From contig NC_134026.1 of assembly GCF_964204645.1 (NCBI RefSeq), positions 3,348,001 through 3,412,000 on the forward strand: a DNA stretch of 64,000 nt. Direction: 5' to 3'. The DNA comes from Tubulanus polymorphus (taxonomy: Eukaryota; Nemertea; Palaeonemertea; Tubulaniformes; Tubulanidae). Below are positions 50,601 through 62,608 of the stretch, piece by piece (position 1 is the first letter of the stretch; each line of letters begins with the position of its first letter). The notes beneath the pieces are model-generated. The model saw only the letters and a list, made by a program, of their open reading frames with translations, was not told where the DNA came from and did not search any database. The position numbers and the translations under genes were made by a program.

Positions 50601-53600
50601 CCAGTTTCAATTGATACGACCTAAATCAGTATCGCACAAGTTTCAATCGATACAACCTAAATCAGTATCGCACCAGTTTCAATTGATACGACCTAAATCA
50701 GTATCGCACAAGTTTCAATCGATACAACCTAAATCAGTATCGCACCAGTTTCAATCGATACAACCTAAATAAGTATCGCACCAGTTTCAATTGATACGAC
50801 CTAAATTGCATACTTAGTCGCATCTGTAAGGATTCTGTGCAAAAGCTCCTTTAACTGTGAGTAGTCAAGACGACACACTTGAATGTTTTCATGTTTTCAG
50901 AAATGAATTATCCACGAACAACGCAATGACACCCTCTAAACATAGAACCAAGCACGGAACCGATAACACCCTCTAAACATGGCATCAACGACACCCTCTA
51001 AACATGGCATCAATGACACCCTCATAACATGGTATCAATGACACACTTCATAACATGGCATCAATGACACCCTCATAACGTGGTATCAATGACACACTTC
51101 ATAACATGGCATCAATGACACCCTCATAACATGGTATCATCAATGACACACTTCATAACATGGCATCAATGACACCCTCATCACAATAATAATTCCCTTT
51201 AAACACAGTACCAAAAACATCCTCTTAAAACACAACGCCATAAAATTTGTCAGTTCAGAATTCACACTCAGCAAAATTGACTGGAATAAAGCGTTGAAGG
51301 TGCATATTAAGATAGTGAAGAGTAACAATAGTTCAACATAACGACATGCAGAACATGTGTCTTACAGTTCAACGACATGTCTTTTTCTTACCAAAAGCCA
51401 AATTTTCGACGCAAACCAGCAAGTGAATGAAAATCTGTCATCGTGGGAAGCTTTTATTTACCAACTCTTTATCTATGAAGTAGTGTTCCAGGTATGAAGC
51501 TATTACATGATAATGACTTACATACAAATGTGATAGATAGAGCGTGTACATCAACTACTGCACTTGATCATGATGGAGAAATTGTGTCCAATTACACCGG
51601 TACTATTAGGCTGCGATTTCATACTATACACTACCGATCAAATTGCAGCTATGACGAATTCATTAAGCTCAGTAACCATGGCATTTCAGCTGCATTTGGA
51701 TACGAATGCAAAAAAATTGAAATCCTAGTTTTCTAGTTTTAATCAAGATGAAAGTAAAAAATCTCGGCGTTCCATTCTCAAAATTCAATATCATATCTTG
51801 ATAAAGCACGAACAACTCGGCAAGATGGCCATTGAAACTAGTGGTCTATTCCACGACCGCCCTTCGCCTTGGGCCAATAGGGTAAATAATGTATAAACCA
51901 AATACTGAGACAATAAATACATGAGAGCGCTTTAAAACCTTCTTGAAATAACTTCATTTCGACTAAAGATGTAAAAAAGGCGGATGAAAAAGCAACGTAA
52001 TCCATCTGGAACAAACGAAAAACTTTTAAACTTTCAGAGACCTTTCAAATTTATGATCGAGAAACAGACACTAATCAGCGAACAGAAGACAAATATTCGT
52101 ATCATACATCGAGACTAATTAGTCACGAGAACTACGAAGTGTAAACTGGCTATTTCATTATGTTGCCATGAGTGATGAATTTAGGCTTTGTAGATGAGCT
52201 CTTCAGGGGGAATCGAGTATCAGACTATGATATGCGAATGTATTCGGGGTTACCTGAGCGATTTCATACCGGATATACACTGCTGCTCTAGGGAGCGGGA
52301 TGAGGCGATGACTATATAGCAAGAATCGTCTCTTAAAACCAGACTCCACATCTTATCATGTGAAAGCTGCGCAAAACTTCGATCGCGAAGGTCTGACAAT
52401 TACGTAGAGAAACACGATGTAGAGAAATATGTCGTCGGGAAAACTGTCAGCTGTCCTCTTGACATGTAGCAGATTAATGGGGATAAACAGTGTTACTTCC
52501 TGTCCCCGGAATGCTTTACAAATACGTCACTAATGCGAAATATCACCTACAGACTCCGACTAATAAGCTTTTTGACATAACAAAAAACATCCGTTCACAT
52601 TTTTGTAAGATTTTCTTTTTTCTAGTGGTACGACGACATGTAGAACACGCACTGATCGTGGAATTAATGACAAGGACCAGGTGTATTTCAGTGTCAAAAA
52701 TGATTTTGACGCTTTTTTTCATGGAGTCTAATCAGATAATTACCAGAGCTTCAATTGGAACATACAAACATAATTACATTCACATCATGCGAGAAGGTAT
52801 CATTAATGAAGAGGTGAAAACTTTCTCATTCTATAGCCGCGATGACACGGAGACGATTTGGCCCGGGCCAAGGTGGCACGGATCAGGCTCGGGCCAAATT
52901 TGGCCCGAGCCTGATCTGTGCCACCTTGGCCTGGTGGAGTCATTTCCGGAACCAGTTGAACCAGTTCCGGAATTTGTGCCGTGCTAAAAGTTGGCTCGAG
53001 CCTGGTCCAACGTTTTTGGCCGGGCCAATTAGGCACGGGCCCATTTGGCACCCGTGTTAACAGTTCTTCCGGGCCAAATTTGGGACAGGCCAAAAATGCT
53101 CGTGTGATCGTGACTTATATCTAGTAACATTTACTCAGCATACATATTTTCTTTACAATATCATCAAATCCCAAGGCGCTGAACAGCTCAGAAAAGGCGA
53201 AAATAGAAATTGGTATCCGGGTGTTTCGGGGAGGCTTGCACGCTAGAAATTCATCGACCAATACAAAATGTATTAGTGAATGTGACATTCACGTATGAAC
53301 AGAAATGAAGTTATAGCTCATCCATCATTTTTGCTCGGCTCTCGAAAATAGACCTGGTCTTTGTAGTTGTGTTTGTGCGGCTGTGCGACAACGATATCTC
53401 ATACCTGTAACTCGGTGACTTGCTTCGACGCGTTATTCTTTGATCTTCGCTATCATCTCCATCGTCGGCTATAGTCGGAGGGATATACTCGCGGTGCGGA
53501 GGCTTCACCGGGGCGCGCGGAGTATCTACATCCGAGTACACCGTATCTTGCTGCTCCTTCGAAGTGATTTCTAAAAAAGAAATCGAGAGAATATCATAGA

Positions 53601-62600: not shown

Positions 62601-62608
62601 GTAGTTTC
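39290..62608 (-). CDS. Modular scaffold-like gene with repeated cassette exons and ITPRID-like terminal exon
   Basis: Exons on the minus strand: 62608-62480, 59806-59716 (alternative start exon), 58109-57999, 57521-57309, 56809-56573, 53896-53816, 53570-53405, 41609-39290. All have GT...AG borders. Exons from 62608 to 53816 all begin with two bases completing a codon and end with one base (symmetric phase 1), so each can be skipped without changing frame. From the ATG at 59806 the protein would be about 1072 residues; including the 62.5-kb exon it would begin further upstream. Four cassettes carry a motif close to [15 protein letters not shown]. The last exon holds an EEILxxLGF...LPERF motif that recalls the IP3-receptor-interacting domain of KRAP/ITPRID/TESPA1 proteins. 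Function is unknown; a cytoplasmic, largely disordered scaffold is my inference. Joining the 5' cassettes to the last exon rests on phase and order only. Confidence 0.65.
42171..42373. mobile_element. GATCACA-type MITE, copy 1
   Basis: Inverted ends AGCCGCGATCACACG at the left and CGTGTGATCGCGGCT at the right. Interior has GCCCGGGCCAAATTGGC-like words and the block GAGAGCGCATTCACACGTAAACC. About 200 bp, non-coding. Confidence 0.7.
42740..42880. repeat. CTACTAGCT dispersed repeat, copy B (foldback)
   Basis: Left arm CCAAAAAATGTTTCCTCGAG with CTAGCAGTTT; right arm AAACTACTAGCT with CAAGGAAACATTTTCGG is its near-perfect complement. The arms extend outward with weaker matches to about 42740 and 42850. 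Confidence 0.6.
43483..43676. mobile_element. Small hAT-like MITE
   Basis: Left end CAGGGGCAGATACAGGGG, right end CCCCTGGATACACCCCTG (reverse complement CAGGGGTGTATCCAGGGG). CAGGGG-type termini are typical of hAT elements. The 8-bp flanks do not match, so no target duplication is seen. Confidence 0.55.
44721..45045. mobile_element. GATCACA-type MITE, copy 2 (degraded)
   Basis: Left end TTATAAGCCGCAATCACGAGGA and internal GAGAGCGCATTGACACG block match the family. The right end (ATGTGAACGGTCTGATATCA) is worn. Confidence 0.5.
50484..50806. repeat. 36-bp minisatellite, nine units
   Basis: Units of 36 bp (GTATCGCACCAGTTTCAATT...) in two main types that differ at GATACGACC versus GATACAACC and partly alternate. 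Because 36 is divisible by three, the plus strand stays open and would encode a 12-residue repeat ([12 protein letters not shown] or [12 protein letters not shown]), ending at a TAA in the ninth unit. I see no splice or start context to support translation. Confidence 0.9.
50929..51190. repeat. 26-bp minisatellite with dimer structure
   Basis: Units near CATAACATGGCATCAATGAC plus ACCCTC. In the right half, ACCCTC and ACACTTC variants alternate, giving a 53-bp higher-order unit. Confidence 0.85.
52831..53120. mobile_element. GATCACA-type MITE, copy 3
   Basis: Left end CTATAGCCGCGATGACACGG, right end CGTGTGATCGTGACTTATA. The interior contains inverted GGGCCAAATTTGGC words that pair with each other. 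An open frame from 52490 runs into it and is not a gene. Confidence 0.65.
53405..53570 (-). CDS. Exon linking cassettes to the terminal exon
   Basis: Acceptor TTTTTTAG, donor TACAG|GTATGA. 166 nt, starting with two bases of a codon and ending with two, so it changes phase from 1 to 2 and must be present to read into 41609. It encodes about 54 residues with [16 protein letters not shown] and an acidic DDGDDSEDQ patch. YSDVDTPR may be a worn copy of the SDLxSVR motif. Confidence 0.75.
53613..53764. repeat. (TA)n microsatellite of about 150 bp
   Basis: Uninterrupted TA dinucleotides, ending in a slightly degenerate TATGTATATATAC. It fills most of the 245-bp intron between exons 53816-53896 and 53405-53570. 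Long Tyr/Ile open frames here are artefacts of the repeat. Confidence 0.97.
53816..53896 (-). CDS. Cassette exon: acidic/basic helix
   Basis: Acceptor TTTTTCAG, donor TCTG|GTATGC. 81 nt, symmetric phase 1. It encodes [16 protein letters not shown], then [10 protein letters not shown], a predicted amphipathic helix. It has no SVRTEDF motif. Confidence 0.7.
54981..55267. mobile_element. GATCACA-type MITE, copy 4 (best preserved)
   Basis: Left end TATAAGCCCCGATCACACGG, right end CTTGTGTGATCCCGGCTATA. The internal GAGAGCGCGTTCACACG block and CATTCACTCGATACTAAAC are shared with copies 1 and the 34-kb pair. Confidence 0.7.
56042..56090. repeat. (TA)n microsatellite
   Basis: About 48 bp of uninterrupted TA. 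Confidence 0.95.
56573..56809 (-). CDS. Cassette exon with [11 protein letters not shown] motif and a second half-motif
   Basis: Acceptor CTTCCAG, donor TTGT|GTAAGT. 237 nt, symmetric phase 1. It encodes [20 protein letters not shown] and, 30 residues on, [11 protein letters not shown], a second partial copy of the motif. An internal duplication within one exon is the simplest reading. Confidence 0.75.
57309..57521 (-). CDS. Cassette exon with diverged motif ([15 protein letters not shown])
   Basis: Acceptor CCACCAG, donor AAAG|GTTTGC. 213 nt, symmetric phase 1. It starts with an Ala/Ser/Pro-rich segment, then [20 protein letters not shown], then a helix rich in Lys/Arg/Gln. The motif copy has conservative substitutions (I for L, T for S, A for V, E for D), so selection on the protein is likely. 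Confidence 0.75.
57999..58109 (-). CDS. Cassette exon with [11 protein letters not shown] motif
   Basis: Acceptor TTGCAG, donor ATTG|GTAAGC. 111 nt, symmetric phase 1. It encodes [13 protein letters not shown], then [20 protein letters not shown]. The core [11 protein letters not shown] is identical to that of exon 56573-56809. Confidence 0.75.
59296..59640. repeat. 330-bp dispersed duplication, copy 1
   Basis: Runs from AATTTCATTAAATCTCATTC to CAAAGCATAGCAAATAAAC. It matches 61975-62315 almost base for base in the same orientation. It has no coding potential. Confidence 0.8.
59716..59806 (-). CDS. Probable alternative first coding exon
   Basis: An ATG at 59806-59804 starts [19 protein letters not shown] and continues for 30 codons to a phase-1 donor GAAG|GTATGC. 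That is the phase needed to splice into any downstream cassette. No acceptor directly precedes the ATG, so I read it as a first exon with its own promoter within the gene. It could instead extend upstream as a longer internal exon. Confidence 0.5.
61725..61783. repeat. Short hairpin
   Basis: CATGGACGTATAAACTAGA at the left pairs with CTAGTTTATATGTCCATG at the right, with a 20-bp loop that itself repeats CTCTA. Confidence 0.6.
61861..61966. repeat. CTACTAGCT dispersed repeat, copy C (foldback)
   Basis: Reverse orientation relative to copy A: GAGCTAGTAGCTTATTCGAC, then TCGACTGTATCATCTTCAGG. Outer arms AAAATAAAGTCTGAGATGTTTC and GAAACATTTCCGACGTTATTT are inverted repeats. Confidence 0.55.
61975..62315. 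repeat. 330-bp dispersed duplication, copy 2
   Basis: Direct copy of 59296-59640 with scattered single-base differences. Its left edge follows immediately after the CTACTAGCT repeat copy C. Confidence 0.8.
62480..62608 (-). CDS. Upstream cassette exon with [11 protein letters not shown] motif
   Basis: Acceptor ATTTTCAG, donor AAAG|GTTCGT. 129 nt, symmetric phase 1. It encodes [11 protein letters not shown], then [20 protein letters not shown]. It begins in mid-codon with no ATG, so at least one more exon lies upstream, beyond what I can find in the window (62609-64000 shows none). Confidence 0.75.

Follow-up and report, generated by a model that had tools for sequence, protein, structure and literature searches.

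Why should a gene spell out nearly the same short peptide in one small exon after another, and could such an arrangement let a cell vary how many copies a protein carries? The question is raised by a stretch of 64,000 nucleotides (the window) of the nemertean Tubulanus polymorphus, contig NC_134026.1, positions 3,348,001 to 3,412,000, in which a first-pass annotation had described a series of exons encoding a motif close to SDLxSVRTEDF. The genome comprises 268 Mb in 77 contigs; the contig that holds the window is called C2 here, and coordinates above 64000 denote upstream loci fetched from outside the window. All five of the exons described are present on the minus strand, each bordered by an AG acceptor and a GT donor, and the phase 1 reported for both ends of each is confirmed by borders, lengths and phases. 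Every one of them combines a length divisible by three with equal phase at its ends, as is expected of a cassette exon. Motif copy 1 lies in exon 62480-62608 (129 nt, motif start 62570), copy 2 in exon 57999-58109 (111 nt, start 58065), and copy 3 in exon 57309-57521 (213 nt, start 57456). Exon 56573-56809 (237 nt) carries copy 4, starting at 56753, and also a half-degenerate fifth copy starting at 56642, so that the four copies counted earlier all stand and the count itself was too low. The fifth symmetric exon, 53816-53896 (81 nt), holds a weak look-alike that was matched by 21 of 200 shuffles, in agreement with its earlier description as motif-less. The original observation is correct, if slightly understated.

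The motif is sharply defined against its surroundings. The four fuller copies yield the consensus S-[DE]-[LI]-[DE]-[ST]-[VA]-R-T-E-[DE]-F-x-x-x-[FY], and a degenerate pattern finds five motif sites and no sixth when run in all six frames over 153.5 kb, a region made up of the window with 10 kb downstream and 79.5 kb upstream of it. When all stop-free 15-mers in this region are scored, the four copies reach 52-61 and the fifth 27.25, the best other site being at 22.0; when the first eight residues are scored by themselves, only the five motif sites reach 22 or more. The best 12-mer block shared among the exons scores 152, compared with a mean of 39.4 in shuffles (standard deviation 5.8, maximum 60, n = 300). 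For copy 5, the remainder of the exon was shuffled 2000 times: no shuffle reached the score of its eight-residue front half, and one reached that of the full 15-mer. With tblastn alone, this copy falls short of significance (E 0.67 to 10). A tblastn search of the four copies against the 153.5 kb also returned a non-copy match at 39974 (E 0.012), in a different frame of the big exon 39293-41609, which was taken as chance; it is stronger than some copy-to-copy matches and lies outside the best 12 sites of the 15-mer scoring.

The codons of the motif indicate that the repeated peptide has been under selection. Over 11 motif codons, copy 2 (57999) and copy 4 (56573a) have 5 the same, 6 synonymous and none changed in sense; copy 1 (62480) and copy 2 have 4 the same, 6 synonymous and 1 changed in sense; and copies 1 and 4 have 3 the same, 7 synonymous and 1 changed in sense. 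Copies 2 and 4 are identical in all 11 residues although 6 of their 11 codons differ, each time synonymously, which points to an old duplication that selection on the protein has preserved. The next 11 codons past the motif show 7 to 11 sense changes in each of the ten pairs, with at most two identical codons, and beyond the motif the exons do not resemble one another in sequence. The first serine codon is AGY in all five copies, which fits descent from one ancestor. Blastn of the motif exons with 450 nt on each side links them by short pieces only, most of them at the motif, once the overlap of neighbouring query segments is set aside. A selected, repeated motif is therefore well supported by the codon patterns, as the first-pass annotation had argued from its conserved, conservatively substituted codons. 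Strict retention of the protein sequence covers three copies and is looser in copies 3 and 5, the seven pairs that involve either of these having 5 to 7 sense changes each.

The motif has no counterpart in the collections searched, consistent with the earlier statement that no described domain bears this signature. No Pfam family rose above its cut-off in any scanned part of the gene, and exons 56573 and 57309 scanned singly gave none at E<=10; a PDB profile search of the motif exons returned nothing significant (best E 0.21 and 3.1), Rfam gave nothing at gathering score in the window, and the string SVRTEDF was not found in the literature searched. Several hits below the curated Pfam cut-offs were judged to be chance: Alpha_L_fucos on the joined motif exons (E 0.013-0.015) and, in proteins of the gene or window, NIR_SIR_ferr (E 0.006-0.026), HTH_65, DUF3835, Glyco_hydro_115, OB_DEPS-1, Tnp_P_element, PGC7_Stella and YdgV. 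Within the genome, the protein of exon 56573 matched only itself at E<=10. A codon pattern for VRTEDF, loose enough to accept VSTEDF as well, has seven occurrences, three of which are copies 1, 2 and 4; the other four comprise two VRTEDF and two VSTEDF, of which one lies in an open coiled-coil-like frame and one between stops. As the backward control of this pattern also gave 4 matches, these four outside matches are at chance level. None of the four has the SDLxS context. The pattern is too strict to pick up looser copies of the kind of copy 3, and the result covers close copies only. A constructed 30-residue double-motif query found no match in the genome and is uninformative, the motif being certainly present. 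We know of no fit to the PP2A-B56, PP1 RVxF, 14-3-3, WH2, RPEL, LC8, EH or AP2 motifs.

On balance, and with modest confidence, we read the repeat as a docking motif, probably helical, that has been duplicated and kept by selection in a large scaffold-like protein; the number of copies would be varied through promoter choice and perhaps through skipping. The copies would have arisen by duplication of a 1-1 exon, with one further copy made inside an exon, and would have been retained as docking sites for a partner, to which several copies could lend avidity. The initial S-[DE]-x-[DE] is a putative casein-kinase-2-like phosphorylation site, and the second half, TEDFxxxF..., may fold as a short amphipathic helix on the partner. 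AlphaFold2, given an alignment of the four motif exons, places in exon 56573 a helix beginning just past the invariant T, and in exon 57309 one that spans residues 21 to 68. For the 12-residue segment that begins at T8, the helical moment in copies 1-4 is 0.32, 0.53, 0.64 and 0.54, values reached by 11%, 1.2%, 3.5% and 3.4% of shuffles, respectively. The strict retention of the motif, taken with the lack of a library match, points to an unrecognized binding partner.

How the copies might be combined depends on the gene model, which was built from codon scoring and splice sites. The chain runs through 72314-72540, 71441-71510, 70538-70830, 69104-69209, 68234-68404 and 67733-67837, then through the five exons described above, and ends with 53405-53570 and 39293-41609, making 13 exons. 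Exons 68234-68404 and 67733-67837 also appear to be 1-1 exons, giving seven in succession. All 12 junctions are phase-compatible and the chain encodes 1408 residues without a stop; three of the exons were chosen with phase in mind, 71441 and 69104 having been sought in this way, so that phase compatibility lends the model weak support. Exon scores are modest for 71441 (6.6), 69104 (3.5) and 67733 (8.6), and for 69104 another frame scores better (0.27 versus 0.10 per codon). Exon 53405-53570, also on the minus strand, is entered in phase 1 and left in phase 2, and its phase would allow it to be joined to 41609 across an intron of 11.8 kb; the predicted last coding exon, 39293-41609 on the same strand, has a frame that closes after 39293. 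Long runs of AT dinucleotides occur at about 53611-53776, near exon 53816, and at about 56043-56095, in the intron below exon 56573, and palindromic GGCCCGGGCCAAA-type elements, resembling by eye miniature inverted-repeat transposable elements, lie in introns at about 44750-45100, 52850-53100 and 55000-55250.

The gene has four candidate first exons: 77587-78286, 76196-76385, 60815-60875 and 59716-59806. All of them end in phase 1 and are preceded, 2 to 23 codons upstream, by a stop in the same frame; if the first of these is used, the gene spans about 39 kb. Over the 600 bp that precede each, the ratio of observed to expected CpG is 0.97, 1.78, 1.79 and 1.31, respectively, against 1.00 overall. 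The last two candidates, both on the minus strand and the former with a TATAAA at 61098, sit between copies 1 and 2. Alternative promoters are accordingly a candidate route, next to exon mixing, to a varied number of copies, and copy number might be set mainly by them: starts upstream of 62.6 kb would include copy 1, and the candidate starts at 60.9 and 59.8 kb would begin past it. Exon skipping could perhaps adjust the number as well, phase 1 throughout permitting it. As a separate observation, an intronic block of about 352 bp occurs twice in the same orientation, at 59295-59645 and 61971-62322 (94.9% identical), the sole two places listed by the genome search; each copy lies shortly downstream of a phase-1 donor, that of exon 62480 and that of candidate first exon 59716.

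A number of observations weigh against this reading of a docking motif whose copy number is tuned. The evidence consists of the DNA sequence of one genome. Of the 11 codons, those with a sense change number 5, 6 and 6 when copy 3 is compared with the three other full copies, and 5 to 7 when copy 5 is compared with the rest. The AlphaFold2 models of exons 56573 and 57309 are weak (mean predicted local distance difference test scores of 54.2 and 64.0); the helical moment of copy 1 is ordinary, its strand moment being higher (0.37), and that of exon 53816 is likewise ordinary (23% of shuffles). The codon score was partly trained on the big exon 39293-41609. Exon 53405 is also open to a stop just beyond 53314, and its join to 39293-41609 is therefore not forced. 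Both internal first exons have near-zero codon scores (-0.09 per codon for 60815 and 0.04 for 59716), so that these are leads only and their coding is putative. Finally, the Pfam model PF14722 (KRAP_IP3R_bind), to which the last exon invites comparison, found no match at E<=10 in its 783-residue frame or in two core sub-regions, HMMER filters being on.

The alternative that survives best, and to which we grant a sizeable if lesser chance, is that all copies are always included, the phase-1 symmetry being a relic of duplication and the gene producing no diversity of isoforms. Duplicated exons inherit symmetry, AG and GT flank every one of the five exons, and blastn within 450 nt shows no recent duplication of the motif exons beyond short pieces. 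Against a constitutive repeat stand the putative internal first exons, both located between copies 1 and 2, together with the donors of motif exons 62480 (GTTCGT) and 57309 (GTTTGC), which are weaker by the usual consensus. The same point about inheritance bears on the earlier proposal that in-frame skipping could generate many proteins: exon mixing is permitted by phase, and to that extent the proposal holds, but because a duplicated 1-1 exon passes on its symmetry, the four motif exons do not count as independent support for skipping, and this part of the proposal is unsupported.

A far more ambitious version of the docking reading, which we regard as unlikely, would combine a new helical docking motif in five copies, up to four promoters and seven skippable phase-1 exons with a divergent KRAP-like scaffold, amounting to a dial by which valency could be set combinatorially on an anchor for calcium signalling or the cytoskeleton. 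Apart from that version, the main docking reading itself includes a possible role of the protein in anchoring a complex linked to the IP3 receptor or to actin, a suggestion whose one ground is the KRAP-like stretch in the predicted last exon. This stretch, ...LPERFV, resembles EEILMNLGF...IPERFL of the genome's PF14722 gene on another contig (C1). The window protein matches that gene with E 0.006 by BLASTP (a single comparison) and with a probability of 71% over 23 columns by hhalign on hand-chosen segments; in a tblastn search of the 1408-residue chain against 100 kb around the C1 gene, the KRAP-like stretch was the only match at E<=5 (E 1.0). Among the matches listed in a genome search with PF14722, the only one is C1:1740982-1741146 (E 1.6e-7). 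As the PF14722 model finds no match in the window protein, the latter is not filed as a KRAP member. The C1 gene was itself considered as a carrier of the repeat and set aside, the degenerate pattern finding no copy in the surrounding 100 kb.

It is distinctly improbable, in our judgement, that the motif is instead part of a helix bundle or coiled coil in which the repeats serve as possible oligomerization helices. Exon 57309, where copy 3 is weakly predicted to run into a long helix, is modelled as one helix from residue 21 to 68, as such a bundle would have it, yet the post-motif sequence is unrelated between exons, the predicted template modelling scores are 0.22 and 0.25 (exons 56573 and 57309), and no Pfam family lies above its cut-off. 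Chance resemblance, or convergent acidic stretches without shared function, could draw on the shortness of the motif, the single genome and the non-copy tblastn match at 39974, but is very hard to reconcile with five sites that stand clear of all other 15-mers and a shared block that no shuffle approached.

The neighbourhood holds other apparent genes on the minus strand. A second gene at about 16875-37004 has an apparent start, MSDEEAESPPPSALRRRRSS, with compatible phase into exon 31989-32315, and frames that by eye resemble coiled coils down to about 16.9 kb. Farther along, at about 4079-10058, frames resemble by eye several adjacent receptors of the seven-helix, G-protein-coupled type.

Motifs repeated across exons let a cell vary the number of binding sites on a scaffold while leaving the rest unchanged, and if the protein is KRAP-like, such variation could adjust how calcium channels are anchored. 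In the KRAP/ITPRID2/TESPA1 family (PF14722; PMC8302619), the C1 member has an EEIL-x-x-LGF...PxRF core to which the window protein bears a local likeness; the window protein differs in that the likeness ends soon past PERF and the Pfam model is unmatched. The KRAP-type gene on C1, unlike the gene in the window, has no copy of the repeat motif in its surrounding 100 kb. No paper was found in the literature searched that treats at least three of ITPRID1, ITPRID2, TESPA1 and phylogeny together.

The repeat is a clean new motif in an uncharacterized gene, of a kind, a motif repeated across exons, that is already known from PMC4554918 and PMC3437557. In the NCoR family of co-repressors, according to the former, the CoRNR-box region is split over several exons and alternative splicing adds diversity. 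The likeness lies in several copies of a short motif spread over exons; the motif is another one, splicing was measured there whereas DNA is the source here, and a large exon is described as having been split there whereas exon duplication appears to have been at work here. According to PMC3437557, tissue-specific exons embed binding motifs in disordered segments, and the exon-sized motif segments described here, which have low structure confidence and are possibly disordered, resemble these. Here the motif exons are known from DNA, and what sets the Tubulanus gene apart is that the same motif recurs in successive exons.

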